In this document: in pieces, positions 7,590 to 33,849 of the stretch
How positions within the stretch are numbered: the stretch's first letter is position 1
Layout: the number at the start of each line of letters is the position of its first letter
Assembly: GCF_029392895.1 (NCBI RefSeq)
Contig: NZ_CP114200.1
Coordinates: 3,193,001 to 3,257,000 of the forward strand
Reading direction: 5' to 3'
From: Streptomyces sp. 71268
GTDB lineage: Bacteria > Actinomycetota > Actinomycetes > Streptomycetales > Streptomycetaceae
Length of the DNA stretch: 64,000 nucleotides
The notes under the pieces: model-generated
Seen by the model: only the letters and a program-made list of their open reading frames with translations
What the model was told of the DNA's origin: nothing
Databases searched by the model: none
Program-made: the position numbers and the translations under genes

Positions 7590-7725
7590 CAACCCCCCGA
7601 CCGCGCGTAGCTTTCGCGCGTGCGCCCCTCGCCCCTCGGGCCGAGCCAGGACCAACTGGCCGCCCTGCCACGGCCGGGCGCGCGGCGTGTGACTCTCGCC
7701 GTCGGCCGGCTGCCAGAGACACCAA

Positions 7726-7759: not shown

Positions 7760-7877
7760 GAGCTGCGGTGGGGTGTTCACGAGTGGGCCTGACCTGCACC
7801 CACAGAGGCGTCGCGCAAGCCCTCCCACCGCCTGGAAGATCATTCCCCAGCTACTTGTACAGGGCACCCGCAGATGC

Positions 7878-8303
7878 CTACGTACTTGCTGGCACGGTCT
7901 CGCCCAGAATCCGCAACGCCCGCGGGTGCCCCCGCGAAGCGAGTGCCAGCACCACCTTGCCCACGGCAGCGTCGACGGTCTCGTGCTCCCAGAGACGCAA
8001 GGGCACCCACCCCAACCGGATGAGGTGGGCATCGGTGTCCGCGTCCCGTCGAACGTTGCCCTCCAGCTTCTCCCGCCACCACTCCCCGTTGTGCACCGGC
8101 GCGTGCAGGTGCTGCGGGCAGGCGTGCCAGAAGCAGCCCTGGACGAATACCGCGGTCCGCCACCGCACGAATGTGACGTCCGCACGACGCCGACGCATCA
8201 TCGGAAGCGGCAGGCCCACGCGATAGCGAAAGCCCAGCGCGTGTAGTGCTCGCCTCAGAGCCAGCTCGGGCACCGTATCTCGGCTGCGCTGCGCCAGCAT
8301 CAC
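7878..8303 (-). CDS. vsr: Vsr-type (very short patch repair) endonuclease
   Basis: About 141 residues. Vsr landmarks are present: R-S-R-D-T-x-P-E near the N-terminus, R-R-R-A-D-V-T-F (catalytic Asp), V-F-V-Q-G-C-F-W-H-A-C-P (Cys/His zinc ligands), W-W-R-E-K-L and L-R-L-W-E-H-E. The family nicks 5' of the T in T:G mismatches arising from 5-methylcytosine deamination. No cytosine-5 methyltransferase is seen in the window, so its normal partner is absent. The N-terminus is short: a TAG lies just before the GTG/ATG pair, so about 15-20 family residues may be missing. It follows mad8 on the same strand after 291 bases and may serve the defence island. Confidence 0.85.
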   Translation of the reverse strand: MMLAQRSRDTVPELALRRALHALGFRYRVGLPLPMMRRRRADVTFVRWRTAVFVQGCFWHACPQHLHAPVHNGEWWREKLEGNVRRDADTDAHLIRLGWVPLRLWEHETVDAAVGKVVLALASRGHPRALRILGETVPAST

Positions 8304-8594
8304 CCGCTAAACATTGGAATCCTTCGGGACCGGCAGCTCCAAGGTAACTTTCCGTTCGATCACATGGCGGTCGCTATAAGTCGCCGTGTCGGCTTTCGCT
8401 CCCTCGCCCTCAGTGGGGGGTTACCTCCAAGCGAAGGGTCGGCTCTACTCCTTGCAACTGGGAAAAGCCGGGCCGCTGGGTCCAGACGGATGTAGCTTGC
8501 CGTTCTTGAGTAAAGACCAGCCGCAAGCATCCCGCACTCCTCGAGAGCGCCTGCACGTGGAGCCACCGTGACCGCTGACCGAACGATATAAGTC
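8304..8594. other. Spacer between vsr and mad8, no gene recognised
   Basis: This stretch contains only short open frames on both strands without Streptomyces-like codon use or a recognisable domain. Its G+C looks lower than the neighbouring genes by eye. It may hold a promoter for vsr, but no clear box or ribosome site decides this. Confidence 0.5.
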
Positions 8595-11500
8595 TCAGGT
8601 TTCCGTGACTGCAGTCTTAGTGGCTCCTCCGTGCTGTGTAACCCGGGGACGGCACTGGACCTTCACCGCTCCGCGGGTGAAGGCCTCGTCGGTGGCCTTG
8701 CTGGACCAGACGAACGCCTCACCCGGTCTCAGCCCCGCCATCTTCTCGGGAGTCAGATTGGCGAGTGCGGCATTCGCCTTCTGGAGGTGCTTGAGCCAGG
8801 CCGGTGAGATCATCTTGTGCAGCACCATGTGATTGGACAGTTCGATCAGCGAGATGGGCACTGAGGGCGGGTCCTGGCTTGCCACCAGGATGGACATTCC
8901 CTTGTGTCGCATCTCACGGACACTTGCCACCAGTCCGTCGACGAGATCCGGGCTGTGAATGTACTTGTGAGCTTCGTCGAAGACGACCAGTTTGTTGAAG
9001 GACTTTCCGTCGTACGTGGCGTCCGCGAAAAGCTGCATGAGAACCACGAACAGCCCCAGAGCCTCGTCCTTGTCGATGTACTCGTCCCTCAGGTCCACGA
9101 TGATGAGACGCCCAGGCCGGACCAAGTCCTGCAGTCGTACACTATCGTCGATGTACTCGGCAGCCAGTTCCAGACGCTGGAAGGCAAGCTGCTTCAAGGC
9201 ATCGGAGAGCGGCGATTCCTCCACACCCTGACGAATGGCCTCCAGGGTGAGATTACGGCGATGAGCCTTCATGATCCGCCCGAGCTGACGGATGTAGATC
9301 GACTGGTTTCCGATGGCCCCCATGAGAAATCGCCAGTGTGCGGCCTGTAGCTCCGACGATGCGAAGGCCAGCGGCCGGACATCTAGGTCCGGGTACTCCT
9401 CTCGCCGGTCCTCCACCTTGTCGGCCGGTGCGAGCAGCACGACGTCGGACAGTGCTGCGGGCTCGGCTCCGTAGCGGGCACGTAGTGCGGCCAGCTGTGC
9501 CTCGTCGCTGTTAGGGCGCGTCATGGTAGTGAACTCGGGCGCGTAGTCCTGGGTGTCGCTGTAGTGGAAGACGATGCTGGCCACCGGATGCGACAGCTGG
9601 TTGACGCCGGGAGTGGGCAGGCTCGCCATCTCCAGGATCGAGCCGAGTGTGTAGCTCTTGCCGACACCCTGGACGCCGAAGAGGCTGATGGTGTGGGTCT
9701 CGTTGAGGTCCAGCGCAATCTTCCGGCCCGCAGTGGTCCCCAGCAGGCCGTACTGCCGTGTCGGCTGGGACACGCCGAGGAAGACACCAGGGCTCAGCAG
9801 CACGTCTCCGTTCTGCGCCGGGCCGTCGCCATCAGGCGGCGAAAGCTCGTCCTGCCGCGTGGCGGGGGCAGCGGACGAGGACTCCGGTTCCGTCTCGGAC
9901 GCCGGGGCGGAGCGGACCGTGGAAACGGTGAGAGCGGGCCCCTGATGCTCGGCGGGGGTCTCAGAGCCGACACGAGCTTCCGAACCCGTCGGCGCGTGTG
10001 CCGTATCAGCCTTTAGCTCGCCGGGCGCCGCCTCCCGGTCGCCGTCCGCGGCCTCCAGTTCATCGTCCGCCGGCAAACGCAGCGGAGCGGGCTCAGCGGG
10101 CACGTCACGCGTCCGCTGCCGGGGACGCAACCTCTTGGGGGCCTCGCTCCCCTCCGGGCCGAGATCGGCGATCGAGAGCTGCTGCGGCGTGCTATGGACA
10201 CGGCCGCCGAGGTACTCCGTCTCGATCACGTCCAGCAGCTGACGCACCACATCCTTTCCGACCCTGTGGAAGGCGACGCCGCCGTCCGTCTCGGAGTCGG
10301 TCCCGCGGTGCCCCAGGTCGAAGACCAGGCCCGTACTGGCGAACTCGAGTGAGTAGCCGTGGTCCAAATGCTCCAGAAGCCAGCGCGCCTCGTCGTACGC
10401 CTTTTCGTCGAAGAGGCCGTACCTGTTCGCGCGAGCAAGGTAGTAGCCCAGCAGCGAGCGCAGGGTGAGGTTACGCAACGGGCGGTCGGCCCGCCTAACC
10501 CCGGGGTCAAACTGCTCGGCCAAGACTCGCCGGCTGCTCTCGGTCTGCTGGATGATCTGCTTCTTCTTCGCCTCGTACGCGCCCAGACCGCCGACCCCGC
10601 TGAAGCACTTCACCTCGACGAGCCTGCACACGATGGTCCGGCGCTCCGCGTCCAGGTCGAGCAGTGCGAGGTCGGTGCGGTGCAGCCGCACCATCGCCTC
10701 ACCGGAGGCGAGTCTGCGCCTGTCCTCGCCGTACAGGTCGATGTGCGCGTCGAGAGGGATCAGGATTTGGTTCCTGAGGGCATCCACGGAGCCGAGATAC
10801 AGCCGGGCCAGCCCCAGACCGAGGACCTCGCTGTGGCTGCTCTCGCTGAGGGCGGCGAGTTTGAAGGCGAAGCTGCCGGACAGTTCCCGCAACTGGTCGA
10901 AAAAGGTCACCACATGGCGATCTTCGATGTCGAGTTTCCGGTCGGCGAGGACGGGACCGATCAGCGCGCGGAGTTCGTCGACCGAGCGTGAGGAGACAAC
11001 GATGTGGTGTCCCAGGCCGGTCTGTGAGGTGGCCGAGTAGTCGATGACGTACTCGGGCCTGTCGGCCCGGCCGTGGTCGAAGTACTCGACGCCGAGTGTG
11101 CGGTCGATCGTGATGACCCAGTCGCTGGCCTGGTGCACGTCGTGCAGCAGGGCCCGGTCGCCCGGCGTCAGCCGCAGGGTGATCTGTGGTAGGTGCCCCG
11201 GGCGCGGCTCACCGGAGGTGACGGTGACGACAGCGGCCGACAGCGCCTCGGGCAGGGCGGCGAGCAGGTCTCCCGTCTCCTCGGTGCCCAGGAGGGGGTC
11301 GGTCGCGCCGTGGCGTGGCTGACGGCTCCACGCCACGTACTCGTCGTCTTCCGCGTAAACACTGGTTAGCTCCTGCACCAGGCCGTGCGCGGCCACCCGG
11401 CCGGTCGTGCGGACTCCAGGGGCGATGTCGTACTGCTCTCCGCCGAAGGGATCGAACAGAATGGTTAGGTGCGCCGGGAACTCGTCGGCCCGTTCACGCA

Positions 11501-14144
11501 GATCACCCGCGTCGCGCACCACCACGGCGAGTTTGGGCCGGAGGGGGTCGCCCGGTGTGGCGAACGCCTCCGCCGCCACCGAACGCGGGCCCGAGGTGGG
11601 TGAGAACAGGCCGGTGAGCGCCTCTCCCACCCACGGTTCGGCGGGGTCGTCCGCGAACAGGCGGACGGTGTAACGCAGATGAGCCAGATGTTTGCGGCTC
11701 TGCAGTTCGGTGAGCATCGCGGTCAGCAGATCGCCCCGGCCGGCGCCCAGCGCGTTGATGACCAGGCTGTCGGCGTACGGGTGGAGCCGAACATAGCGTT
11801 CCACCCGGTCAGCGAGGTCACTGCCGGTGACCAGCCCCGAGGCCGCCGCGCCGGAATCCGCTCCGACTGCCGCCGCGAGCAGGGACACGGTGCCGCGGGG
11901 GTCGGCGGTCTCGCTCGGCAGGCACACCTGCCAGAAGTCGGTGAGCTGCCCGCCCGCGAAGGTGAGCTCCCCCGTGGTCAGCGGCACGACCAGGGGAAAA
12001 CCGAGGGGAACGAGTGAAGCAGTGAGGCTGTGCAGGCGCTCCTGGACGGTGTCCCGCGTCTCGCCCGCGAGTCGCTCCAGCCAGTGGTCGGCCAGCGCCG
12101 CGTGTCCGCTCCACCACAGCATGCGCAGCGGGTGGGTCGGAGCCACCAGGATCACCCGGCGCCGGCCGCCACGAGCATCGGTTAGATCCACATGGAGCGT
12201 GTCCGTGCGCAACAGCAGGGCCAGCTCGACACGGTCCCGGTCCCCGCTGCCGCCCCGCGGGTTCTCCAGTGCGCGGACGCAGCGGTTCACCGCTCTCAGG
12301 TACGTCTCCGCGTACACTTCCGTCTCCTTGCGGACATCACGCGGGTCCGTCGCCTCCACCACGAGGGGCGCCGCGCCCTCGGCGTCGGCGCGCACCGCGG
12401 CGAACACTTCGGCACGCGCCTGCAGGTAGGCGTCGAAGTCGCTGCCTGCTTCCGCGGTGACCGCGGGTGCCTCGTCGTCTCCCAATACGGCGGCGCCGGT
12501 GGCGTCGACCGTGAGACGGGGCCCCTCAAGGGCATGCGGCCGGGCCAGCATGCGTTCCTCGGCTTCGGCAAGCGGAATGGGCAGGTCGATGGTGACCGAC
12601 CCGGCCGCTCCGAACGACGCCTTCAAAGGCCATGTCTTGGCGGTCTTGGCCGCCCAGCCGATGTTGCGGCAGACGACCCGTGAGGGATCCCGCCCCTCGG
12701 CGAGGGCGGTGAAGCGCAGTTTGTTCACCGCCTGGGCCAGGCCGGGGGCGGGCTGGGACCGCCGCACCGGGGGATCGTCGAACTCGCCCTCGGGAACGAC
12801 GTAGAACCGGTCGCTCTCGTCCGGCCGCTGCGTTCCGTCCGCCCCGACGACCGGCATGGCGTCGCCGTTCGAGTCCAGCGGGGTGACCCGTACGAAGTGC
12901 CAACCTTCCTCCCAGTCGGCCTTGCGGCCCTTCTTCAGCTTGATGTTGGCCTTGAAGCGCGTCCGAGCGGTTTTGGTGACCGACGCCGTCGCGGTGAAGC
13001 CGGTGGGGCTGGCGGTGGTGGTTCCGCTGTCGCCGTCGGTCTCGGACTCGGCGAAGATCTGGACAGCGAACCGGCTGAGGCCGGGAATGTGGCGGGCGTC
13101 CGGTTCGACCGTAAAGGTCACTGGCAGCGAGGTGAGGCCTCCGGGCAACAGGTACTGCGCGCCGAAGAGCCGTTCCAGAGCGGGATGGTTGCGTAGGTCG
13201 TCCTGGTTCTGTCCCGCCTTGGGCAGCGAGGACAGCTCTTCGACCTCGATGCCAACCTTCTCATCGCTGGGCTCGTTCTCCTGGGGCCAGTTGTGGAAGG
13301 CAAGTGGCCAGTTGTCCTGGTCGATCGCGATCGCGCGGCACCATCGACCCGGTTCGTCCAGACCGCCGTCGGCCGCGAACTCGACCAGGCGGCGTACGAA
13401 GGCCTGGTGCGCTGGGGAGTTCTGCGGCAGGCCGAGGGCCAGCACCCGCTGGCGGTCGGTCGCGGCGGAATCCGTCAGGCGCGTCACCGTCTTGCGATTG
13501 CGGTCGGCCTTGCGCGTGACCAGCGACAGGTCCTGGAATAGTTCGAAGTCGGGGATGAGCCCGAGCAGGAAGACCGCCGCGCCGGCTACCTGCGGGTCGA
13601 AGTCGTTCTCCCGCAGAGTCAACAGATAGCGGACCGCGGCCGGGTCGCTCGCCGCGGGCCAGTCCTCCGCCGAAAGCCGCTCCAGCAGTTCGGTGACCGC
13701 CGGGCGCAGCGCGTCGGGCACCTCGCGCAGGAGGGACGCCTTCAAATTCCGGTGGACGTCGCTCAGGGACAGCTGCTCGAAGGTGGCGATACCGAAGGAG
13801 TCCTCGGCGCTGGCGCGCGTCCCCGGCGGTACGAACACCAGTAGGGGTGGCCTCAGCCCGCCCTCCTCGTCGGGGTTGCGCAGCTCCACCAGTTTGGTGC
13901 TGCTGACCGCCACATCGGTGGGAAGATGCGGTGCCGAGTTGCCCAGGACGAACACCTGGGACTCGGGTACGGCCGTACGCAGGCCCCGTACCAGCCGTGT
14001 CGCGAGCTCGGCGTCGAGGTCACCGAGGCGCATGCAGTGCCCGGCTTCGCGGCCGCGCAGCACGGAGGCGAGCCTCGGCAGCAGGGCGTGCTCCAGGGCG
14101 TCGCGCCACTGGGCCTCGGTGATCTCGTTCAGTCCGTGTGCCAT
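8595..14144 (-). CDS. mad8: MADS protein MAD8: giant HerA-like ATPase with nuclease-like segment
   Basis: 1849 residues. The C-terminal third is a HerA/FtsK-like ATPase: Walker A G-V-Q-G-V-G-K-S at about 1487-1494, and Walker B V-V-F-D-E-A-H-K near 1720 followed by A-S-Q-D-P-P-S. A PD-(D/E)xK-like set is visible near 1155-1180: D-L-A-L-L-D-L-D, then L-V-E-V-K-C. Between them, about 1380-1480, is an acidic, Ala/Pro/Ser-rich linker. The N-terminal 1100 residues have no domain I recognise. Size, architecture and position after the kinase and the 565-aa gene match the ATP-binding protein MAD8 of MADS, required for phage restriction. GGAGG nine bases before ATG supports the start; it lies 15 bases after mad7. 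Confidence 0.8.
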   Translation of the reverse strand: MAHGLNEITEAQWRDALEHALLPRLASVLRGREAGHCMRLGDLDAELATRLVRGLRTAVPESQVFVLGNSAPHLPTDVAVSSTKLVELRNPDEEGGLRPPLLVFVPPGTRASAEDSFGIATFEQLSLSDVHRNLKASLLREVPDALRPAVTELLERLSAEDWPAASDPAAVRYLLTLRENDFDPQVAGAAVFLLGLIPDFELFQDLSLVTRKADRNRKTVTRLTDSAATDRQRVLALGLPQNSPAHQAFVRRLVEFAADGGLDEPGRWCRAIAIDQDNWPLAFHNWPQENEPSDEKVGIEVEELSSLPKAGQNQDDLRNHPALERLFGAQYLLPGGLTSLPVTFTVEPDARHIPGLSRFAVQIFAESETDGDSGTTTASPTGFTATASVTKTARTRFKANIKLKKGRKADWEEGWHFVRVTPLDSNGDAMPVVGADGTQRPDESDRFYVVPEGEFDDPPVRRSQPAPGLAQAVNKLRFTALAEGRDPSRVVCRNIGWAAKTAKTWPLKASFGAAGSVTIDLPIPLAEAEERMLARPHALEGPRLTVDATGAAVLGDDEAPAVTAEAGSDFDAYLQARAEVFAAVRADAEGAAPLVVEATDPRDVRKETEVYAETYLRAVNRCVRALENPRGGSGDRDRVELALLLRTDTLHVDLTDARGGRRRVILVAPTHPLRMLWWSGHAALADHWLERLAGETRDTVQERLHSLTASLVPLGFPLVVPLTTGELTFAGGQLTDFWQVCLPSETADPRGTVSLLAAAVGADSGAAASGLVTGSDLADRVERYVRLHPYADSLVINALGAGRGDLLTAMLTELQSRKHLAHLRYTVRLFADDPAEPWVGEALTGLFSPTSGPRSVAAEAFATPGDPLRPKLAVVVRDAGDLRERADEFPAHLTILFDPFGGEQYDIAPGVRTTGRVAAHGLVQELTSVYAEDDEYVAWSRQPRHGATDPLLGTEETGDLLAALPEALSAAVVTVTSGEPRPGHLPQITLRLTPGDRALLHDVHQASDWVITIDRTLGVEYFDHGRADRPEYVIDYSATSQTGLGHHIVVSSRSVDELRALIGPVLADRKLDIEDRHVVTFFDQLRELSGSFAFKLAALSESSHSEVLGLGLARLYLGSVDALRNQILIPLDAHIDLYGEDRRRLASGEAMVRLHRTDLALLDLDAERRTIVCRLVEVKCFSGVGGLGAYEAKKKQIIQQTESSRRVLAEQFDPGVRRADRPLRNLTLRSLLGYYLARANRYGLFDEKAYDEARWLLEHLDHGYSLEFASTGLVFDLGHRGTDSETDGGVAFHRVGKDVVRQLLDVIETEYLGGRVHSTPQQLSIADLGPEGSEAPKRLRPRQRTRDVPAEPAPLRLPADDELEAADGDREAAPGELKADTAHAPTGSEARVGSETPAEHQGPALTVSTVRSAPASETEPESSSAAPATRQDELSPPDGDGPAQNGDVLLSPGVFLGVSQPTRQYGLLGTTAGRKIALDLNETHTISLFGVQGVGKSYTLGSILEMASLPTPGVNQLSHPVASIVFHYSDTQDYAPEFTTMTRPNSDEAQLAALRARYGAEPAALSDVVLLAPADKVEDRREEYPDLDVRPLAFASSELQAAHWRFLMGAIGNQSIYIRQLGRIMKAHRRNLTLEAIRQGVEESPLSDALKQLAFQRLELAAEYIDDSVRLQDLVRPGRLIIVDLRDEYIDKDEALGLFVVLMQLFADATYDGKSFNKLVVFDEAHKYIHSPDLVDGLVASVREMRHKGMSILVASQDPPSVPISLIELSNHMVLHKMISPAWLKHLQKANAALANLTPEKMAGLRPGEAFVWSSKATDEAFTRGAVKVQCRPRVTQHGGATKTAVTET

Positions 14145-14159
14145 GCCGTCCGTCCTCCG

Positions 14160-15857
14160 CTACCTTCCGCCCGCCGTCACCGTGCCGTCCTCACCGATCA
14201 CGAAGCGTGGCGTGATCACCTGAGTGAGGTAGGCGTCGGACAGGTCGCTGTAGAAGCCGATCTCCCGCATCCGGGTCGTGAACGCCTCCGCGTTCGACCG
14301 CAGTACGGCCTGCTCCTCGAAGCTCGTGGACGCGAAGCCGTCGTCCGCCGGCAACTGGTTCACGTGGAGGCCGTAGCGGCGCCGCAGGATGTCCATGAAC
14401 TCGTCCAGGCGCAGGGACGCGGTGTGGTGCAGGAAGCGGGACCGGGTGCCGCGGGCGTTGGGTCTGAGCAGTGCGATCTGGACCAGGACTTCCAGCAGCG
14501 CGCTGTCCAGGACGAAGCGGCGGCGGCCCCGGTAGGGCTGCGCGATGACCGCTCCCGGACGGTTCTTGAGCAGGAGGGAGTCGATGGATTCGATGATGTA
14601 GTCGTTGTGGTACTTGCCCCGGTAGGCCATGAGCAGCTCGATGTACTGCTCGAAGGAGCTGAGCCCCATGCCCGCGCCGAGCAGCGGCCGTACCCCCTCG
14701 GGTTGCTCGTCGATGGGCGTATCGACCAACAGGTTGTCCATCCTGGCTGCGAAGAACTGCTCACGCCGTTTCTGGTGGGGCCTGTCGGCGAACTGGAGCA
14801 CTTCGACGACCGTGAAGAAGCCTCTCGACGGCTTGGCCACCTCGTCCAGGCTCACCAGATGCCGAGCGAACTCGTCCAGTTTACGGACGGTGTATCCGGC
14901 GCGGACGAAGCCCGGGATGCGCCGCAACCAGACCTCGGCGCTCCGTTCGGCCAGCGCCGCCGCCGGTGTTCCGGGCACTCCTGCCGCGTCCACGAACAGC
15001 CCGACACGGAACGGGCAGGCGGCGAAGTCGTCCTGGCCCTGGCCGGGGCCGGCGGGGCAGTTCTCCGGCCCGCAGGAGGGTTCGGCGCCGGACCGCTCGA
15101 CCATGGACGTCAGCAGCTTCATCGTCTTCAGCTGGCCCAGCGCCAGGTGGAAGGCGAAGAGGATCTTCAGGTACTCGACCATGACGATGCGCGGCAGCAG
15201 GTCGCGCAGGGACAGCAGCCGCAGCACGTCGTCGGCCAGAAGGTCGGACTGCCCGACGCAGAGCGGCGGGGCGGAATACCAGCCTTTGACGGTCTGCGGG
15301 GTGTCATGCTTCACCTGGCTGTTGAGGTGCAGCACGGCCTGGGTCTCGACGTCGAGGCCGCTGCCGGGCAGCGGAGTTCCCAGGGCCGGGTCCAGGCCGG
15401 TGAAAAAGAACCCGCGGATTGCCTCCAGGGCGAGCGTGCCCCGTCCGTCGCGGGCGTGCCGCAGCATCTCGTACAGCTGGGCGTCGGCGCCGTAGGCCCG
15501 GGAGTGGTAGTAGTTGCGGAACTTGTACGTCAAGCCGTGCAAAGGGCGGAGCCCTGCGACGGCCTGGCTCGGCTTTCCCCGGTTGACCATGTCCAGCAGC
15601 TGGGTCTCGATCCAACGCTGGGCCATGTCGCGGTGCTCGCGGAAGCCCTGGAACCGGTCGGCGTACTGCTCGTCGAGAAATTCCTGGACGAAGGTGTCAC
15701 TCTCGTGCTTGTGCCGCTGAGCAAGCCTGCTCGGCTGGCCGTTGTGGTTGACGCGCATGAGGAAACCGGTGAGCACCCGGTCCATTTCGACGCGCTTGAA
15801 GTCCAGGTACGACACTCCGAGATGTCGGAACTCGCTGTCCTGCTTGCGCAAGGCCAT
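14160..15857 (-). CDS. mad7: MADS protein MAD7 (uncharacterised defence component)
   Basis: 565 residues. No enzyme domain is recognisable. It is rich in helices and charged residues (L-D-F-K-R-V-E, F-L-D-E-Q-Y, D-E-F-M-D-I-L-R-R-R). A cysteine cluster at about 261-280 (C-x4-C-x13-C) could bind a metal. The ATG shares one base with the TGA of the kinase gene upstream (TGATG), a sign of translational coupling, and 15 bases separate its stop from the giant ATPase. The identity rests on position and length between the MAD6-like kinase and MAD8-like ATPase; I recall no independent motif. A DNA- or protein-binding adaptor is a guess only. Confidence 0.7.
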   Translation of the reverse strand: MALRKQDSEFRHLGVSYLDFKRVEMDRVLTGFLMRVNHNGQPSRLAQRHKHESDTFVQEFLDEQYADRFQGFREHRDMAQRWIETQLLDMVNRGKPSQAVAGLRPLHGLTYKFRNYYHSRAYGADAQLYEMLRHARDGRGTLALEAIRGFFFTGLDPALGTPLPGSGLDVETQAVLHLNSQVKHDTPQTVKGWYSAPPLCVGQSDLLADDVLRLLSLRDLLPRIVMVEYLKILFAFHLALGQLKTMKLLTSMVERSGAEPSCGPENCPAGPGQGQDDFAACPFRVGLFVDAAGVPGTPAAALAERSAEVWLRRIPGFVRAGYTVRKLDEFARHLVSLDEVAKPSRGFFTVVEVLQFADRPHQKRREQFFAARMDNLLVDTPIDEQPEGVRPLLGAGMGLSSFEQYIELLMAYRGKYHNDYIIESIDSLLLKNRPGAVIAQPYRGRRRFVLDSALLEVLVQIALLRPNARGTRSRFLHHTASLRLDEFMDILRRRYGLHVNQLPADDGFASTSFEEQAVLRSNAEAFTTRMREIGFYSDLSDAYLTQVITPRFVIGEDGTVTAGGR

Positions 15858-20044: not shown

Positions 20045-20211
20045 CGGCGGCTGTTCCCCCCCTGTACGGTCCCGTCACCCTCGCACGTCCCCCGCGCCTT
20101 GCGCACGGGGGCAGTTGACGGAGCTGAACCGCACGGCACCGCCGTGTGCTCGCATCACTCTAGTGTGGTCGGGTCCCCTGCGTGACTGGCTGTGGACAAC
20201 TGGGCAACTAG

Positions 20212-21107
20212 GGCGTTTCTTTGGGATCATCTGATCGTTGGTCTGGTGTGTCGTTGACTGATGCCCAGTGGGCGAGGTTCGAGCCGTTGTTGCCGGATCG
20301 GACGCCGAAGCGGGGCGGGCGTTGGCGTGATCACCGGCAGGTGATCGACGCGATCGCCTACAAGTACCGCACCGGGACACCATGGATGGACCTGCCCGCA
20401 CGGTTCGGCTCGTGGAAGGGCGCCCACAACCGGCTGCGTATGTGGGCGGCCGACGGTACCTGGGAGAAGGTCTTCACCGCTTTGCTGGCCCAGGCCGACG
20501 CCGAGGGCGACCTGGACTGGGTCGTCGCGGTGGACTCCACGATCGTGCGAGCACATCAGCACGCCGCCGGGGCCCGTCAAAAGGGGCCCCGGCCGGCGAG
20601 CCGGCCGATCATGCCCTTGGACGGTCCCGCGGCGGGCTGACCACCAAAATCCACCTCGTGGCCGACGGCCGCTGCCGCCCACTCGCGTTCACCATCACAC
20701 CCGGTCAGGCCGGCGACGCACCAGCGTTCACCGAGGTCATGTCACGCCTGCGGGTGCCCCGGCCGATCGGCCGGCCCAGAACAACACCAGAGGTGGTCCT
20801 GGCCGACAAAGCGTATTCGTCCCGAGCGATCCGCAGTCACCTGCGACGGCGCGGAATCCGAGCGGTGATCCCACAGCCGGCCGACCAAGCCGCGCACCGC
20901 AAACGGCTCGGCCGGCTCGGCGGTCGCCCGCCGGCCTTCGACCACGACGCCTACAAACAGCGCAACACGGTCGAACGCTGCATCAGCAAACTCAAGCAGT
21001 GGCGCGGTCTGGCAACCCGATACGACAAGACCGCCACCATCTACCTCGCCGGACTCCACCTCGCCGCCATCTTCATCTGGTCAGCAAGATGATCCGAAAG
21101 AAACGCC
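20212..21107 (+). mobile_element. IS5-family insertion sequence between mad5 and mad6
   Basis: 896 bp. The ends are inverted repeats: the left end begins GGCGTTTCTTTGGGATCAT, and the right end, read on the other strand, begins GGCGTTTCTTTCGGATCAT, one mismatch in 19. CTAG flanks both sides (20208-20211 and 21108-21111), the target duplication seen in the IS427-like branch of IS5. Everything between is the two-frame transposase. Both ends and the duplication look intact, so insertion is probably recent relative to the surrounding debris. Confidence 0.92.
20248..21092 (+). CDS. IS5-family transposase, made by -1 frameshift (orfA/orfB)
   Basis: OrfA (stop at 20640) carries L-T-D-A-Q-W-A-R-F-E-P-L-L-P, D-G-T-W-E-K-V and the first catalytic Asp in V-A-V-D-S-T. 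OrfB, in the -1 frame to 21092, carries R-G-G-L-T-T-K-I-H, the second Asp in L-A-D-K-A-Y-S-S and the Glu region R-N-T-V-E-R-C. A CAAAAGGGG run at 20578-20586 lies where the frames must join, the usual slippery site of these elements. The likely start is GTG at 20248. The element reads opposite to the mad genes, so it is unlikely to drive mad6 from its own promoter. Confidence 0.88.
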
Positions 21108-21153
21108 CTAGCCGCCGTGCTCAAGCCACAGCTTTCGAGAGTGTCGCCCACCG

Positions 21154-21510
21154 TCAGAGATCGTCGGGAAGCAGGCGGAAGGCGAGCTGCCGGTGCGGCC
21201 GCATCATGCGAAAGTGGCCGTCCGTCGTGAAGATGTCGGCCGTCTGGAAGGCCGTGGCCAGGGCCACGGTCATCGCGTCGGTGAGCCCCCGGCCACGCCG
21301 TCAGCGTCGACGTAGCCTCGCATCACCGCCATGGCGGTCCTCGCATGCGGCGCGGTGCCAGGGATCACGAACTGGCGAGACTCCGTCTGCCCGGTGATGA
21401 AGTCCAGCGCGTTCATGGCTGCTGCGGCGCCGATCCGTGAGGTGAGCAGGTAGTCCAGCGCGGCGAGCACCATGGGGGACACCACCAGGTGGCCCGTCGG
21501 AATGCGCCTC
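21154..21510 (-). pseudogene. PIN-domain (VapC-like) protein remnant, frameshifted
   Basis: Read on the minus strand, the segment from about 21510 gives H-L-V-V-S-P-M-V-L-A-A-L-D-Y-L-L and later G-T-A-P-H-A-R-T-A-M. The frame then breaks near a run of five G at 21286-21290. In the next frame it continues as G-L-T-D-A-M-T-V-A-L-A, then I-F-T-T-D-G-H-F-R-M-M and stops after L-P-D-D-L at 21154. The D-A and T-T-D-G-H-F pieces are PIN-domain landmarks. The N-terminus with the first Asp is missing. One lost base explains the break. It was probably the toxin or nuclease of a toxin-antitoxin pair; no antitoxin is seen. Confidence 0.7.
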
Positions 21511-21514
21511 GCCC

Positions 21515-21830
21515 AACAGCCCGCGTACGAGTACCTGCGCGCCGAGTGCCACCAGGGAAGGATGTGCCACTGCCGCACAGCATGGACCTGCTGCTGATGA
21601 CCCGCTGCGGCTGCCCGTGCTACCAAGAGCGGAAGGAGGGCGAGCAGTGAACGCCGGAACCCGCCCGAGTCGGGCAAGTCCCGCATGACAATCAGCACTA
21701 CCGCCTTACCGGTGACGGGCGGCAGATCCGCAAGATCGAAGAGCGCACCTACGACGGCGGCGACCCCGTCCAGCTGCCCGACTCACGGACGTGGCCGCCC
21801 TGCCGCTGGCCCCGCTGCGCACCGCGGTAA
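21515..21830 (+). other. Debris of small ORFs, possibly from an integrated plasmid
   Basis: Short coherent peptides without proper starts are visible on the plus strand: Y-E-Y-L-R-A-E-C-H-Q-G-R-M-C-H-C-R-T-A near 21525-21590, and H-Y-R-L-T-G-D-G-R-Q-I-R-K-I then D-S-R-T-W-P-P-C-R-W ending at a TAA at 21828. Cysteine-rich fragments of this style remind me of small genes on pSAM2-like integrative elements of Streptomyces, but I cannot name the family. No intact gene is present between the IS and mad5. Confidence 0.4.
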
Positions 21831-21860
21831 CTGCTCCGCGACGCCTGCCACGGCCCCTTC

Positions 21861-23315
21861 TCAGGCTGGTGCGGGCAGTCCCGCAGGGGCCACGCCCGTA
21901 TGCTGCGCAACCGCCTTCTCCAGCAGGTCGAGGGCCAGGTCTTCCTTCGCGTCGGCCTCGTCCCGCTTGCGGTAGGCGGTCCGGGTCGTTTCGGTGATCC
22001 GGTCCCGGTCATCTGCCGTAAGCAGAGGTACGGGGATCTCGGCGCACAATCCGGTGTGAATGTCCTGCTGTTTACCCCCTGTGGACATTGAACGCAGAAC
22101 CCGGAACATTGACTCAGAGCGAAGGAAAGCGAAAAGGTAAGCGCCGGTGAATGGCGAGCCGCCAGGGCGCACACGGAGAAAATGCTCCGAGAAGGCGTAT
22201 GCCAGCCAGGAACCAGTAGCAAAAATCGGTCGGCCAAACACCTCGTTCTCACCAAGAGTTCCTTGCGAGGCAACGAGAATCGTCTCATCTTGGGCCAATA
22301 CTTCTGGTGAAGTGTTGGCCTTGCTGACCCATCGCCCTTCCGGACGCAGCCAGAATGCTTGCCGCTGCCCCACCAACTTATAGCTGTACTGCGAACCTTC
22401 GGCGCCCTCTACACGCGAAAAGCGCAGGCCTCGGCTCAGTTGTCCGCCCTTGCAGATGTCCCCAAGCAGCACGTGATCCACTTCGCGCAGATCGTTGATG
22501 ATTCGGCGAGCCCTCGGCTGGTAGTTAAGCGCCCGCAGCGTCGTCGGCGTGATCCCCCGCTGAGTGAAGCCCAGGTCCCGGGGCTGGTCATGCCACCGCG
22601 TGTCGAGCAGCTTTTCCAGGCGCGCCGTGGTGAAGAGGTCCCTGGTCGCCTCCTCCAGGCCGCTCTGGAACTCCGCCCGGAGCGACGCCGCCTCCTCCAC
22701 GAGGTCGTGGATACGGTTCTCCACGTCCTCCCCGAACCGCGGCACCGGCAGATCCGCGATGTGGTGCGGCTCGATGTGCTGGATGATCGCGCCGTAGGCA
22801 TGGCTGGTGATGATAGGGACACCGAAACGGCTACGCAGGAAGGTGTTGAGGTACCCGGACTTCACCCGCGCCGGATTGGCTTGGACCTTCATCACATGCT
22901 GCGAGGACCAGATGCCCCGCATGTCAGGTCGCACATACGCCATTCGCCCGATGGTCCCCGAGCAAGAGATCAGCGTCATCCCAGGCTGGATCTCCAGGTA
23001 CGGGAATTTATTGGCGACCTCATGACCGAGCAGCGGCAGATGCGTGAGATCCGCCTCCATCATGTCAGTGCTGCCAAGAAATGGCACACCCACCTCAGGA
23101 TCATTGACATAGAGGCGGCTGAACTTGGGACCGTTGAAAATGCCTCCGTTATGCCCCGCCGTGAGGTCCGACAACGGATCCTTGCGAACGGGAATCCCCT
23201 TCAGCAACTGATTCGCCGCGAACGCCCCCGACAGATAGGGCGCCGCGTCCAGACGAAGCCCCTGCTCCCGGAGCCAGCTGAGGCGGACCGGGTTGTCTGT
23301 GGACGCGGTCTTCAC
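21861..23315 (-). CDS. mad5: MADS specificity subunit MAD5 (HsdS-like)
   Basis: 484 residues with the two-repeat plan of type I restriction specificity subunits. The first target-recognition domain includes F-L-G-S-T-D-M-M and L-I-S-C-S-G-T-I-G-R; the second includes V-A-S-Q-G-T-L-G-E-N-E-V. Each is followed by a helical spacer (I-H-D-L-V-E-E-A and D-L-A-L-D-L-L-E-K). The S-G-T-I-G and Q-G-T-L-G motifs are typical of HsdS proteins. It would direct the methyltransferase, and possibly restriction, to a two-part DNA site. ATG overlaps the TGA of the preceding gene by four bases. It appears complete, with the debris and IS beginning just after its stop. Confidence 0.85.
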   Translation of the reverse strand: MKTASTDNPVRLSWLREQGLRLDAAPYLSGAFAANQLLKGIPVRKDPLSDLTAGHNGGIFNGPKFSRLYVNDPEVGVPFLGSTDMMEADLTHLPLLGHEVANKFPYLEIQPGMTLISCSGTIGRMAYVRPDMRGIWSSQHVMKVQANPARVKSGYLNTFLRSRFGVPIITSHAYGAIIQHIEPHHIADLPVPRFGEDVENRIHDLVEEAASLRAEFQSGLEEATRDLFTTARLEKLLDTRWHDQPRDLGFTQRGITPTTLRALNYQPRARRIINDLREVDHVLLGDICKGGQLSRGLRFSRVEGAEGSQYSYKLVGQRQAFWLRPEGRWVSKANTSPEVLAQDETILVASQGTLGENEVFGRPIFATGSWLAYAFSEHFLRVRPGGSPFTGAYLFAFLRSESMFRVLRSMSTGGKQQDIHTGLCAEIPVPLLTADDRDRITETTRTAYRKRDEADAKEDLALDLLEKAVAQHTGVAPAGLPAPA

Positions 23316-24115
23316 TGCTTGTACTCCGTCTGCTTAGTGTGATCGGTCCCGTACTTCCCCACCGCTGTCGCCCCCTGGGCGGGGAACCATTCGGCCAACG
23401 TGGCCATCAGCCGCTGGAACGACTTGTCCGTGCACCTTCGCACGGAGGGCAAGGCAAGGGCCAGCCGCTTGAAAATGCCGTTGTTCTGGTCGGCGGTGTA
23501 GCCCTCCTCGTACAGGTACTCCACCGCCCGCTTCGGGTCACCGGGCTTGTCGGCACCGGGCTGCCACAGACCGGCCTCCTCCAGCACCTGTCTCGGCGTG
23601 CGGTCGCCGCCCTTCGGTGTCCACAGGAGAACCCGTTTGACCAGGCCCAGGTCGTCGATCCAGAACCAGTTCTCTAGCTCGGGCTCAATGACGATGACCT
23701 CGAATTGCTCCCAGACGCCTTCCAGCTGCGCAGCGATTCGGTCACGGATCTCGTCCGGGCCTGGGGAGCCCTCGTAGGCGTTATCCACGACCACGACCGC
23801 ACGGCGGAACTCGCGTCTGCGGCGGTTGAGGATCTTGCCCGCTTCCCTCTTCACCAGTCCGGGATCGTGTCCACCCGCCCTGACGATGTCGGTCTTGTGG
23901 TTGAACTCGAAGCGGGCGCATCCCAGCTTATGGTGAAAGTCTCCCCGCCCCAGGAAGGTCCCGATCATGGCCTCCATACCCTTGTCGGCGACCAGGAAGA
24001 CCAGTTCCCGCTTCGCCGTCTCCTCCACCGGAGCCGACTGCTGGGGTACGGAGGAGGCCAGGGGCGTCGGGGAAGCGGGACCGGAACGCCGCCGCTTTGC
24101 GCTCGTGCGACTCAC
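23312..24115 (-). CDS. mad4: MADS protein MAD4 (possible Toprim/DUF4276-like protein)
   Basis: 267 residues. After a basic, Ser/Pro-rich 35-residue N-terminus, the fold shows V-F-L-V-A-D-K-G-M-E-A-M, then R-A-V-V-V-V-D-N-A-Y-E-G, then V-I-V-I-E-P-E-L-E-N-W-F-W. The spacing of conserved acidic residues after hydrophobic strands resembles Toprim-like proteins such as DUF4276, which often stand beside AAA ATPase genes, as OLD/Lap nucleases do. That is my inference; no firm family match. It overlaps mad3 upstream and mad5 downstream by four bases each (ATGA), so the genes are translationally coupled. Named from order within MADS. Confidence 0.7.
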   Translation of the reverse strand: MSRTSAKRRRSGPASPTPLASSVPQQSAPVEETAKRELVFLVADKGMEAMIGTFLGRGDFHHKLGCARFEFNHKTDIVRAGGHDPGLVKREAGKILNRRRREFRRAVVVVDNAYEGSPGPDEIRDRIAAQLEGVWEQFEVIVIEPELENWFWIDDLGLVKRVLLWTPKGGDRTPRQVLEEAGLWQPGADKPGDPKRAVEYLYEEGYTADQNNGIFKRLALALPSVRRCTDKSFQRLMATLAEWFPAQGATAVGKYGTDHTKQTEYKQ

Positions 24116-25452
24116 TCAAAGACTCCCGTGGCGAAGAGCGTGCCGAGATCGAGGTCGTCCAGGCCGGCGCGCCAGTCGGCCATACGGGGATGGTGGTCGC
24201 CGCGTACGACGGTGACCGCGCCCGTATCGGGGTCCATGCGGGTGGCGAGGACGTCGGCGAGGTTGGCCTGAGCCAGGACCAGAGGCGACTGGGAGGCGAC
24301 GAGGACCTGGCTGCCGCGCACGGTCCGCAGCGCCTGCATGACGATCTCGATGGCCTGCGGGTAGATGCCGTTCTCCGGTTCCTCGGTGACCAGCAGAGCG
24401 GGGATTCGGGGCAGGTACGGCAGAAGCGTGAGGGCGAGTACCCGCAGGGTGCCGTCGGACAGGCCCGAGGAGGTGACCTGGTAGCCGCCGTCGTAGGTCA
24501 CACGGAAGTAGGCGTGGCGGTCCTCCTCGCGTTCGACGACCTCGACTGCTTCGACCTGCGGCAGGGCGAGTTGGACCAGGTCGACCCAGGCGCCGTACCG
24601 CGCGGGGTCGTCGCGCTCGAGCTGGAGAGCGAGCCAGGGGGCGTTGAGGCCCTGGGTGTCGAGTCTCGGTTCGCGGCCGGCGGGCGGGGCGGCCTGACGG
24701 AGCGCGGACCACTCGGGGGCGTAGAGGACGGCGCCGTTGCGGAGGAGGTCCTGGAACCACAGCGCGGCGGGGAACTGCGTGTCGTCGAAAGGGACCGTGG
24801 CCAAGGCCAGGTTGCTGTGCTGGCTCCGGAAATTGAGCTGTTGGCCCTGACGTCCCGCCTCAGGGGTGAATCGGACGACGGGACCGCGGGTACGGGCGAT
24901 CACCGGGCGCCAGGGCTCGTGCCACTGAGGGTTGATGCGCTGGCTGCGGCCCCGGCCGGTGACCGTGGCCTCATCGGGATCGCCGAGGGCCTTCACCTCG
25001 GGGATCGGCCGGACCGGGGCCTCCTCATGGAAGAGCACCAGATACTCGCCGGCGATCTCCAGCCCCCGCCCGCTGTCCACAGGTTCGAGGTGGAACTCGT
25101 ACCGCAGGTGTGTGGGCGCGGGGAACCGCGGATCGCGGCTGGACTCGGCGATCACGTCGGCGACCGGGTCGGGAAGCCGGGCTTCCATGGCGAAGCCGAA
25201 ACCGCCGTCCCGGCCCCGGTGGGCGAGTTCCATGAGGGACAGGGCCCGAGGAGGCCGCCCTGTGGCCGGGGAGGGGTCCAGGAAGGCGTCCTCGATCCGG
25301 CGGGCGGTCAGCAGCTCGCCGAGCAGGACGGGGATGTCCAGCAGGGTGCTCTTGCCCGAGCCGTTCGCCCCGGCGAGTATGTGGAAGCGGGACAGGTCGA
25401 CGGCCAGGTTCTCGAAGCACCGGTAGTTGTAGGCCTCGATCCGGGTGATCAC
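24112..25452 (-). CDS. mad3: MADS AAA-family ATPase MAD3 (RecF/ABC-like)
   Basis: 446 residues starting at GTG, whose last two bases begin the TGA of the methyltransferase gene (GTGA overlap). It has the N-terminal I-T-R-I-E-A-Y-N-Y-R-C-F-E-N-L of RecF/SMC-like ATPases, Walker A G-A-N-G-S-G-K-S at 28-35, the ABC signature-like S-G-L-S-D-G-T-L-R near 335, and Walker B L-L-V-T-E-E-P-E-N-G near 351-360, followed by a V-A-S-Q-S-P-L switch. Proteins of this kind dimerise on ATP and often work with a Toprim nuclease, here perhaps the adjacent mad4 product. Confidence 0.85.
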   Translation of the reverse strand: MITRIEAYNYRCFENLAVDLSRFHILAGANGSGKSTLLDIPVLLGELLTARRIEDAFLDPSPATGRPPRALSLMELAHRGRDGGFGFAMEARLPDPVADVIAESSRDPRFPAPTHLRYEFHLEPVDSGRGLEIAGEYLVLFHEEAPVRPIPEVKALGDPDEATVTGRGRSQRINPQWHEPWRPVIARTRGPVVRFTPEAGRQGQQLNFRSQHSNLALATVPFDDTQFPAALWFQDLLRNGAVLYAPEWSALRQAAPPAGREPRLDTQGLNAPWLALQLERDDPARYGAWVDLVQLALPQVEAVEVVEREEDRHAYFRVTYDGGYQVTSSGLSDGTLRVLALTLLPYLPRIPALLVTEEPENGIYPQAIEIVMQALRTVRGSQVLVASQSPLVLAQANLADVLATRMDPDTGAVTVVRGDHHPRMADWRAGLDDLDLGTLFATGVFE

Positions 25453-27623
25453 GTACGGTCCTTCCAGGGAAGCTCGTGGGCGTACCGCGCTACGAACTCG
25501 TGGTACCTCTCCGCGATCTTCGGAAGATCGTTGTCGGGGATGGGGCGCTCCCGCTTGAACGTGCGCCGCACCTCGACGCCGGCGATCCGGAGGACTTCCT
25601 CGTCCTCGTACTCCTCGGTGACGACATGACCCTCCGGGGAACGGACGACGACTGGCTTCCCCCGGCGGTCGATGCCCACCTTCTCGGCGACCGCCATGAA
25701 CACGGGGTAGTCCTCCGAGCCGTGGAAGCGCTCGGCCCGCTTTTCCTCGTCTGTCTTGCGGACGAGGAAAAGCAGGGTGGTGAGAATGTTGACCCCGGCC
25801 TCGTAGATGAACGTCTCCACCGGTAGTTCGACGCTGGCCATGACCCAGCACTCCTGCAGGATGAACCGGCGTACCGCCTCGTCCGAGGGCCCGGGGTTGG
25901 ACAGGATGCCGTTGGGCAGGACGATGCCGATGCGTCCTCCCGGCTTGACCCACTCGATGGCGCGCTGCACGAAGAGTTGTTCGGGGGAAACGGCCGTGGC
26001 CTCACCCGACTTCTTCAGCTCGCCGTTCTCGCGGGTGTAGTTCCAGGCGACACCCCAGTCACCGCCGCGCTGACGCACCCGGTCCCGATACCTGCCCAGC
26101 ACCGCAGCCTCAGAGAAGGGGATGTCGGAGCCGAACGGGGGGTTCGTCATCAGGACGTCCACGGCGCCGAGTTGTATCTGTGGCACCCTCTTCGCCTCGT
26201 CGTTGCCCGGCAGGTGACCGTCGGGGAAGGCGATCGAGTCCATCTGGTAGACGTTGCCCGCGATGTCGGTGAGCATCATGACGCCCATGGCAGCGGCGCG
26301 GCGCAGGAAGGGGTCGAAGTCGGCGCCGAAGATGTGCCCACGCGCGTAGGCTGCGAGCTTCTTGCGCAGGGGGGGCAGAATCTCGGCGTACTCCTGGCTG
26401 GTGAAGGTGCCGTTCTTCGGCTTCCACTGCTCCTGGAGGTAGTTGAGGGTCTCCCGGAGGAAGCCGCCCGTTCCACAGCAGGGATCGAAAACGGTTTCGT
26501 GCTCCTTGGGGGCGAGGATATCCACCATCAGCCTCACCGCCCCGGTGGGGGTGAAGTACTGGCCACGGTCACCACGCAGGTTGTCACCCACGAGTTCCTG
26601 GTATGCCACGCCCTTGGCGTCGATGGGTGTGGCGTAGAGGCTGAAGGGAGCCAGCTCGCTGGTGATGAAGGTGAGCGCCGGGTCGGACAGGGTCAGCCGG
26701 TCACGGTCGTCGAACAACCCCTGGTCCGCGTAGTCGGTCTTGACCTCCTCGAAGAGCTCCCTTATCCGAGCAGCGACGGCCGGGCTCCCCGTGCGGCCCT
26801 CCTTGTCCAGGTCCTCGATGCCGACGCGGAAGCGCGGTGCCCGCCCCTTCTCACGCACCAGCCGTTCGTCATGGATCTTGGCGAAGAGAACGTAGAGGAA
26901 CTGCCAGAAGGCGGCGTCCTTGGGCAGGCCCTCGTTGCCGTGGATGAAATTGTGGCAGCGCCGGAAAGCGAAGCGGAGCATGTACTCGTCCGCGTGCCGC
27001 AACTCCGCCAGGGACGAGGCGTCGCGGGTGGCGTCGAACTCCTCGTCGTCGCCCCGCGGCCAGTTCGGCAGCGGATGAAAGCGCGGCTCGAAACGGGTGC
27101 TCTCGCGCTCGACGAAGTACAGGTCCTTGTCGTCGGTCCACATGCCCAAGGTGCAGGACGGCCCAGCGGCGGTCATCAGATCGCGGAGCTCCTGCAACTG
27201 GGCGTCCGCCTGGGCGTAAGTGCGGATCTTGGTGACCGTACGGCCGTTCTTGGGACGGGCCTTGGTGACGACGATGCGCTTCAGGTTCTCCGGCGTCTTC
27301 GGCTTGTCGTGCTCGAAGATCGCGATGCTCGCCCGCTTGCGGCTCATCCGGCCGGTCTCTGTGTTGAGGACCTGGAGCGGGTAGTCGCGGACCATGTCCT
27401 CCGGGTTGATGCCGTACTGGTGCACCAGGACCCTGGCAATGCGCTGGCGGACGATCTCGGCGTCGGTCAGCTTGACGACGTCCTTGTTGCTGATGTAGTC
27501 GATCGTCTCGTCGTCGCCGAGCTTTCGAGGTACGCCGGCCTGGCCGGACTGCTCCTCGGGCCGCCCGTTTTTCATCGGCTTCTCCGGCACGGGGATGCCC
27601 AGGTCCAGCTGCTCGTCGGCCAT
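25449..27623 (-). CDS. mad2: MADS DNA N6-adenine methyltransferase MAD2 (HsdM-like)
   Basis: 724 residues. A helical N-terminal part precedes G-Q-Y-F-T-P, SAM-binding motif I F-D-P-C-C-G-T-G-G-F at about 379-388, and catalytic motif IV N-P-P-F at about 492-495; the order I then IV is that of gamma-class N6-adenine methyltransferases such as type I HsdM. The C-terminal 60 residues carry E-V-R-R-T-F-K-R-E-R. It should modify adenine in self DNA with the HsdS-like MAD5, the mark that protects the host. AGAAGG lies six bases before ATG. No HsdR gene is present, which separates this locus from ordinary type I restriction. Confidence 0.87.
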   Translation of the reverse strand: MADEQLDLGIPVPEKPMKNGRPEEQSGQAGVPRKLGDDETIDYISNKDVVKLTDAEIVRQRIARVLVHQYGINPEDMVRDYPLQVLNTETGRMSRKRASIAIFEHDKPKTPENLKRIVVTKARPKNGRTVTKIRTYAQADAQLQELRDLMTAAGPSCTLGMWTDDKDLYFVERESTRFEPRFHPLPNWPRGDDEEFDATRDASSLAELRHADEYMLRFAFRRCHNFIHGNEGLPKDAAFWQFLYVLFAKIHDERLVREKGRAPRFRVGIEDLDKEGRTGSPAVAARIRELFEEVKTDYADQGLFDDRDRLTLSDPALTFITSELAPFSLYATPIDAKGVAYQELVGDNLRGDRGQYFTPTGAVRLMVDILAPKEHETVFDPCCGTGGFLRETLNYLQEQWKPKNGTFTSQEYAEILPPLRKKLAAYARGHIFGADFDPFLRRAAAMGVMMLTDIAGNVYQMDSIAFPDGHLPGNDEAKRVPQIQLGAVDVLMTNPPFGSDIPFSEAAVLGRYRDRVRQRGGDWGVAWNYTRENGELKKSGEATAVSPEQLFVQRAIEWVKPGGRIGIVLPNGILSNPGPSDEAVRRFILQECWVMASVELPVETFIYEAGVNILTTLLFLVRKTDEEKRAERFHGSEDYPVFMAVAEKVGIDRRGKPVVVRSPEGHVVTEEYEDEEVLRIAGVEVRRTFKRERPIPDNDLPKIAERYHEFVARYAHELPWKDRT

Positions 27624-28427
27624 GTATACCTTCTACTCCATTCCGACTACCGTCGGTCCCGCAGACGGATACGTCTGTGTGCGCTGCGCACCCACACCTT
27701 AAGGCAGGGCGGGATTTGGCGATGGCGTCGCACTTATCCCCAAGGGCATCCGCCGATTCGACGCCAAGATCATCGTTACGACCGCGGGACGCCAGGGCGC
27801 GGTCGAGTGGGCCACATAGCTCTCAAGCATGTAAGGACCGAGCGAGAAGCGCCTTCGGCGAAGAGTCCACAGTACGGACCCGAGCAAAGCTCAGGCCATC
27901 GCACCCCTCCCGCCATTTGGATCAAGTGAGGTGGCTGCTTGTCTACCCACGCTTGACGCTTCACCCATGAGCTTGCCCAATCCCACGTCTCGCCCCCTGC
28001 TGACTCTGATCGTGATCGATAACGCGGAACGTGTAGCGCTCCGGTCACCCAGAGCAGCCTCGCCATGGACGCTGCCTCGGTGCACGGTGCACCCACAGGA
28101 GAGCCAGATGAAAGCGGCTACCTGGCTAGCCAGAAACTGCTTTGCGGGCCTCCTGTTGCGATGGGGTTCAGTCGTAGGGCATCGATTCACGCCGCCGTCT
28201 ACTGACGGCTCACCCAGGGTACGGACGGGGGAGCAGGTGCTGAGCGCTTGCACCAATCGGGTTCAGCACACTGCCTTGGACAGTGGTTTTCGGGCAGCCG
28301 CGTCTATGCAGTGGGTGCCGCGCATGAGACTGGATGATGTCCTACAGGAACCACATGGTGACACCATTGCGACGTTGGCGGCTGGCTATCTCGAGGGCTG
28401 GCTACCGGACGGCCCGATCACCTTGTA
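27624..28427. other. Upstream region of mad2, no intact gene recognised
   Basis: About 800 bases between mad2 and the second IS. Several short frames overlap without a known domain. On the plus strand a coherent but orphan peptide (A-L-I-P-K-G-I-R-R-F-D-A-K) is near 27730-27770, and another (R-M-R-L-D-D-V-L-Q-E-P-H-G-D-T) ends at a TAG formed in the CTAG target of the IS. These look like remnants of unrelated genes. The mad2 promoter must lie here or come from the IS. No mad1-like HTH gene was found in it. Confidence 0.5.
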
Positions 28428-28431
28428 CTAG

Positions 28432-29536: not shown

Positions 29537-29746
29537 CTAGCCACAGCGCGCGGGTGAGGGTTGGTGGCACAACTCGCGAGACCCCTACATGCAGGCAACA
29601 TGCAGGAGCGTCCTTCCCGGTCGGGTGAAATAGGGCTGCTTTTGGGCCTAGCAGTATGCCTGCCTCCTACAGTCTTGTTCGTCGCACTTATGCAGCGCAG
29701 CCCCGGCAATAGGGGGTATGCAAGCCAGTCGGGGACGGGAGTAGCA

Positions 29747-33811: not shown

Positions 33812-33849
33812 CGAACCGTTCCCGGGCTAACCCGCGAACGGCCCTGCGG

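Follow-up and report, generated by a model that had tools for sequence, protein, structure and literature searches.

The Methylation-Associated Defense System (MADS) was reportedly described by Maestri et al. in Cell Host Microbe in 2024. We analysed a locus of this kind in a window of 64,000 nucleotides from Streptomyces sp. 71268 (positions 3,193,001–3,257,000 of NZ_CP114200.1, the single 8.38-Mb contig of the genome); judged by the locus, the nearest relatives of the window are Streptomyces. Excerpts of a 2026 review (PMC12904381) place MADS among systems whose mechanism of restriction is unknown. Excerpts of two other papers concern the DndFGH complex, one describing its nickase and translocase activities (PMC11662687) and the other characterising it as 'lacking an inbuilt modification module' (PMC10853773). 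The best explanation for the locus, and one that we consider quite probable, is an intact MADS on a tRNA-Ala island, with a DndFGH-type restriction half, two transcription units and an insertion sequence (IS) that does little harm.

All seven minus-strand genes scored above the curated NCBIfam equivalog cut-offs in a profile search (bits/cut-off: MAD2 929/720, MAD3 538/420, MAD4 225/160, MAD5 597/400, MAD6 678/460, MAD7 604/410 and MAD8 234/175). PADLOC returned a mad2 to mad8 match for every gene, in order; rival PADLOC families scored higher for two of them (MTase_II at 596 bits versus 205 for mad2, HEC-01A at 108 versus 102 for mad3). A sequence-only reading of the window had proposed these genes to be mad2–mad8 from their order and size, to be checked by PADLOC and profile searches; each was matched, and the locus is a MADS with mad2–mad8 complete and in order. 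It differs from the known system in that no mad1 was recognised, mad5 and mad6 are parted by an old gap that now holds the IS, the locus lies on a tRNA-Ala island, and the AIPR partner usual in Streptomyces was not found.

The first block begins with mad2 (25449–27623; minus strand, like all genes of the locus), which encodes an N6-adenine DNA methyltransferase of 724 aa, identified by NCBIfam MADS2, Pfam N6_Mtase and an NPPF motif at 494. It is followed by mad3 (24112–25452), encoding an AAA-type ATPase with the Walker A sequence GANGSGKS (NCBIfam MADS3); by mad4 (23312–24115), 267 aa from a GTG start (NCBIfam MADS4); and by mad5 (21861–23315), encoding a restriction-type specificity subunit (NCBIfam MADS5). 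The open reading frame (ORF) of 613 aa listed for mad3 starts too early, as the MAD3 model spans residues 168–612 only; the gene call places the start at ATG 25452, giving a product of 446 aa and a 4-base overlap with mad2. The second block consists of mad6 (15857–20044), mad7 (14160–15857) and mad8 (8595–14144). From the coordinates, mad2-3-4-5 are joined by three 4-base overlaps, mad6 and mad7 overlap by 1 base and mad7 and mad8 are separated by 15 bases, just as had been read from the sequence.

There are no internal stops in mad2–mad8, and comparison with Streptomyces resistomycificus gave low ratios of non-synonymous to synonymous change (dN/dS: mad2 0.06, mad3 0.15, mad4 0.22, mad5 0.13, mad6 0.14, mad7 0.10 and mad8 0.14). 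Inspected by eye, NPPF in Mad2, the Walker A motifs of Mad3, Mad6 and Mad8 and a nuclease-like motif in Mad8 are kept; the second kinase of Mad6 has HCDIKPSN and DFN, and the first has HRH instead of HRD. The system is intact, in agreement with the earlier view of its frames. Silencing through decay was rejected, there being no sign of it in the intact frames and low dN/dS of mad6–8, and an apparent break of mad6 in the profile table for S. alfalfae was an artefact, the whole protein being aligned in one frame by tblastn. Against S. resistomycificus, dS was 0.54 for mad5 versus 0.11 for mad2, a difference that would fit an exchange of the specificity gene.

The products of mad6–8 were compared by hhalign with profiles of the Dpt proteins, which gave 99.9% for Mad6–DptF, 96.3% for Mad7–DptG and 98.1% for Mad8–DptH, with nothing else above 5.4%. 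These are three adjacent genes, in the same order as F, G and H and homologous to them one to one. Mad6 has a NERD nuclease domain, then an inactive and an active Ser/Thr kinase, and a DndF-like P-loop domain from about residue 790 (NCBIfam MADS6, Pfam NERD and Pkinase, hhalign to DptF, motifs by eye). Mad7 is a DndG-type protein with the DndG fold; its profile found nothing among PDB sequences. Mad8 is of DndH type (NCBIfam MADS8, hhalign to DptH) and carries, at the level of sequence, the DndH nuclease motif in the form D..ExK (D1158, E1177, K1179) and a C-terminal HerA/FtsK-type ATPase (Walker A at 1490). The D, E and K and a Q are invariant in 15 of 15 aligned sequences, Mad8 could be aligned to DndH up to VEVKC / VVESKF, and the Mad8 profile matched HerA-type chains with a best E of 5.4e-6. 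By profile comparison, then, the general result is a one-to-one match in order, size and profile of the restriction half of MADS, with the C-terminal half of Mad6 as F, to DndFGH and SspFGH.

MADS differs from those systems in pairing this half with an N6-adenine methyltransferase and a specificity subunit instead of dndABCDE or sspABCD, and in the fusion of the DndF core of Mad6 to NERD and two kinase domains. Because no dndABCDE or sspABCD gene was among the matches listed for the ORFs of the locus (PADLOC, Pfam and NCBIfam; a genome-wide search was not made), we did not file the system as Dnd. The NERD-kinase DndF variants in excerpts of PMC10853773 have the same domain chain as Mad6; the window differs in having a modification module. 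The word 'MADS' does not occur in that paper, and as a whole word it is absent from PMC12707154 and PMC12948488. No link between MADS and DndFGH appeared among the papers listed by literature searches or in passages of PMC12839542, PMC10853773, PMC12904381, PMC12926258 and PMC11980395; the original MADS paper may already state it. An SspG profile run on 396 genomes of the phylum gave three matches, two of them mad7 (in the window and in G056) and the third in G524, and phage records held no mad7 relative at E 1e-5.

In the working that we propose, Mad2 and Mad5 would methylate host DNA at N6-adenine, with the site set by Mad5, as expected from their families. Mad6-7-8 would form a DndFGH-type restriction complex that attacks DNA without the mark, with Mad8 as DNA translocase and nuclease, Mad7 as DNA-binding subunit and Mad6 as sensor, its NERD and kinase domains being placed before the DndF core. 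A wider claim, which we judge as a whole and hold to be evenly balanced between right and wrong, is that MADS is a Dnd-type engine gated by N6-adenine methylation, not phosphorothioate, with Mad6-7-8 as DndFGH plus a NERD/kinase sensor arm; that one translocase–nuclease complex has been paired in evolution with different self marks; and that Streptomycetaceae gained, as a further arm, an AIPR-family partner whose gene changes place within the locus.

Related arrangements were seen on plasmids. On a Rhizobium plasmid (L161:11745–25910), genes for a NERD protein, for a protein of 607 aa and for a large ATP-binding protein stand in the Mad6-7-8 order, with two methyltransferase genes after them and no annotated specificity gene in this stretch. 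On a Priestia plasmid (L160:4472–20613), AIPR, adenine methyltransferase and type II endonuclease genes adjoin dptF-dptG and a DptH-sized gene. A MADS plasmid of Bacteroides finegoldii carries a protein phosphatase 2C gene directly 3′ of mad8 (L079:23118–23783), a natural counterpart to the Mad6 kinase.

To compare loci, we searched 392 genomes of the genus for mad7, and 21 gave a match (weak in G241, in pieces in G413). Nineteen stretches were fetched from this search, all except the genome of the window itself and G241, and a mad5 profile search of genome contigs added 77 loci. After removal of duplicates there were 86 loci, of which 73 show mad2, mad5, mad6 and mad7; this set was drawn mostly by mad5 and is biased towards loci that bear it. 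Both mad3 and mad4 are present in 16 of the 73 and mad3 only in one (L120); five have two tandem mad2 genes, and 51 have neither mad3 nor mad4. In 49 of these 51 the distance between mad2 and mad5 is at most 150 bases, leaving no room for them. Therefore, mad2-5-6-7-8 is the common core in this locus set. In the mad7-based search, which is free of the mad5 bias, 19 of 20 genomes (G241 left out) have mad2 and mad5, G413 in pieces; the other, G129, has a broken locus with neither gene. Two tandem mad2-type genes with no mad3 or mad4 found occur in L110, L121, L122, L126 and L127, and also in L135, which yielded no mad6.

The AIPR family (E 1e-20) was present in 16 of the 20 MADS genomes versus 48 of the 372 other genomes of the genus (Fisher p 1.3e-10, with kinship ignored and two candidates scored per genome). 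Each of the 16 carries it at the MADS locus, before mad2 in 13, in the mad5/mad6 gap in two and after mad8 in one, and the 15 best AIPR matches all come from MADS loci. It is missing from four genomes: those of the window and of S. resistomycificus, G129 (whose locus is broken) and G413 (in pieces). It is unlikely, in our estimate, that the genes are intact but the system incomplete, needing AIPR, an XRE/DUF397 pair or mad1 that the lineage does not have. The presence of AIPR in 16 of the 20 MADS genomes, each time at the MADS locus, would fit such a need, and neither an XRE pair nor mad1 was seen in the locus of the window. No AIPR was found in the genomes of the window and S. resistomycificus by a search that did find one in S. 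hygroscopicus, nor in the S. alfalfae assembly, where the search was without a positive control. However, two sister species also appear AIPR-free, the shared island has low dN/dS, and outside Streptomycetaceae a Streptomyces-seeded profile found no AIPR within the fetched MADS stretches.

We return to the intact system and to the region between mad5 and mad6. The element there is of the IS5 family (20212–21107, plus strand): it has a DDE transposase (domains DUF4096 and DDE_Tnp_1) in two overlapping frames (20221–20640 and 20382–21092), terminal inverted repeats that are 90% complementary over 30 nt, and a short target duplication, CTAG, at 20208–20211 on the left and 21108–21111 on the right. 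S. resistomycificus provides the matching empty site, with a single CTAG where the window has the IS and two. CTAG being palindromic, these data would be explained just as well by a TA duplication of 2 bp and an IS that extends one base further on either side. Five more copies lie in the genome at 78–79% identity, all six being flanked by CTAG; the split transposase frame looks like the normal state of the IS, since it is found in all four copies read in the coding direction, that of the window included. Beyond the IS, 21112–21860 is a remnant of the older mad5/mad6 gap, homologous to DNA in IS-free relatives; inspection by eye showed its minus strand to hold a PIN-like fragment with a frameshift. 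An intact IS with CTAG duplications plus debris between mad5 and mad6, as first read, is thus what the window contains.

What was not supported was the further claim that the IS had cut joined blocks and so deprived mad6–8 of read-through from the mad2 promoter. The distance between mad5 and mad6 is at most 300 bases in 46 of the 73 loci. Of the other 27, ten have a mad5 profile match limited to the first half of the gene, 15 come from Streptomyces and have a genuine gap, and two (L120 and L156) are ambiguous. A FastTree tree of mad2 and mad7 was made from 38 chosen loci (32 Streptomycetaceae, five other Actinomycetota and one outgroup; L099, L102, L112, L137, G129 and loci of other phyla were left out). 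Fourteen gapped loci group together in a clade (support 1.0) that contains no locus without a gap and has mad5–mad6 distances of 0.83–5.1 kb; L112 is the fifteenth. The three closest relatives of the window have an IS-free gap of 0.83–0.99 kb, and none of the 14 other gapped loci, 13 of them of the same clade, has a match to the IS of the window. Ten of the 14 clade gaps hold an XRE-DUF5753/DUF397 regulator pair on the opposite strand, alone in five and with an opposite-strand AIPR gene in five, one of which also has a PIN-like gene; the gaps of the window, S. alfalfae, S. resistomycificus and S. hygroscopicus yielded no member of these families. Since the IS-free loci of the clade are gapped, ten with opposite-strand genes in the gap, direct adjacency of mad5 and mad6 was lost before the IS arrived, and we rejected the IS as the cause of the split.

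A conserved promoter-like element, ACTAGAGTGAT, lies upstream of mad6 in an alignment of relatives (20154–20164, minus strand). The pattern ACTARAGTGR[CT] precedes mad6 in all ten loci in which mad2-5 and mad6-8 are arranged around a gap, with no more than one mismatch in any of them and none in nine; where AIPR occupies the gap (six loci), the element falls within the short stretch separating the divergent AIPR and mad6 genes. The window has it between the IS and mad6, with the IS about 165 bp upstream of mad6 and outside the element. A similar element, TTAAGGTG, was noted by eye at 27695–27702 (minus strand; position counted by hand), 79 nt before the mad2 start. Both look like −10 regions, and the second is a possible mad2 promoter. 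That mad6–8 have a promoter of their own near 20160 is, on this conservation, fairly likely; the fallback offered earlier, that a separate mad6 promoter may keep the system working, is to this extent favoured by the data, while a promoter recognisable by consensus scanning was not found. Thus mad2-5 and mad6-8, parted long before the IS, are probably two transcription units, and the IS, upstream of the putative mad6 promoter and within the leftover of the older gap, should do little harm and is probably harmless. Beside the insertion point, 20191–20199 on the minus strand reads TTGTCCACA, which we take to be the Streptomyces DnaA-box consensus; S. hygroscopicus has TTATCCACA, and the match may be chance.

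We regard as very unlikely the alternative of a once continuous mad2–8 operon cut by the IS, with mad6–8 now silent and methylation continuing. Contiguous mad5–mad6 is indeed commoner elsewhere (the 46 loci and the ten with half-covered mad5, the 8-gene Piscinibacter operon being among the contiguous loci), the IS does sit upstream of mad6, a consensus scan gave no promoter there, and the mad strand of the IS has three terminator-like sites versus 0.9 expected. This is outweighed by the gap that every one of the 13 IS-free clade members has, with opposite-strand genes in ten, by the conserved element on the mad6 side of the IS and by the lack of decay in mad6–8.

Several results weigh against an intact MADS with a DndFGH-type half and two transcription units. 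A mad1-type helix-turn-helix (HTH) gene next to mad2 was not found in the locus by our own profile, built from two seeds only; the PADLOC mad1 model, a 60-position HTH profile, is uninformative, since the matches listed for it include each of the 20 genomes and every one of the 14 controls. The window genome yielded no AIPR. The Dpt templates consist of three sequences each, and hhalign with single templates was weaker (28–91% for Mad7, 24–99% for Mad8), while Foldseek by itself gave no match for Mad7 at E 0.001. A sigma-70 consensus scan of 19950–21950 found no promoter, and the mad6 promoter call comes from conservation, part of which is simple relatedness. That the genes belong instead to the bacteriophage exclusion (BREX)/Pgl systems is hardly credible: the N-terminal half of Mad6 shares NERD and kinase domains with PglW of BREX type 2 and matches it at 144.9 bits, but this is far under the cut-off of 990, Mad6 differs in its DndF-like C-terminal half, the MADS equivalogs fit every gene, and neither PglZ nor any other brx/pgl gene or BREX component was among the PADLOC and NCBIfam matches listed for the scanned ORFs of the locus.

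The intact MADS lies on an island of about 26 kb (7725–33847), delimited by comparison of identity with S. resistomycificus, whose match ends at 7725; the other edge is a tRNA-Ala(CGC) gene (33848–33923, minus strand). The backbone beyond the tRNA is 79–84% identical between the two genomes and the aligned pieces of the island 89–94%; identity jumps at the tRNA 3′ end, where the sequences are nearly identical, and is 91–92% over two long MADS-bearing pieces. S. alfalfae shares both the tRNA and the end sequence. From the identity jump and these shared ends, the island of about 26 kb seems to have been exchanged recently, and the defence system is probably mobile. At both island ends, S. resistomycificus keeps exact copies of a 15-bp inverted repeat; in the window, the tRNA-side copy alone is intact (33830–33844). 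A tRNA-derived direct repeat was considered as the other end, but only a 9-bp match was found (7763–7771), which we did not count as evidence.

Also on the island is a gene for a vsr-type nicking endonuclease (7878–8303, minus strand; PADLOC, Pfam and NCBIfam), which we ruled out as a mad gene by its Pfam PF03852 match (53.7 vs 27 bits); it scored 97.3 bits against TIGR00632, just under the cut-off of 97.85. It is likewise 3′ of mad8 in S. resistomycificus, at 89% identity and a dN/dS of 0.17. Two plus-strand ORFs in common with S. resistomycificus, of 303 aa (30933–31844) and 549 aa (31943–33592), are recombinase-like and transposase-like, respectively, by eye only and have no Pfam match. A second IS5-family element (28432–29536, minus strand; CTAG at 28428–28431 and 29537–29540) sits about 0.8 kb upstream of mad2; S. 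resistomycificus lacks it.

A jumping element beside a defence operon need not, therefore, mean a broken defence. If Mad6-7-8 are DndFGH, the existing DndFGH biochemistry gives a ready experiment. Part of the NERD-kinase DndFGH systems would then gain the missing modification module, and how one engine reads different DNA marks would become testable.

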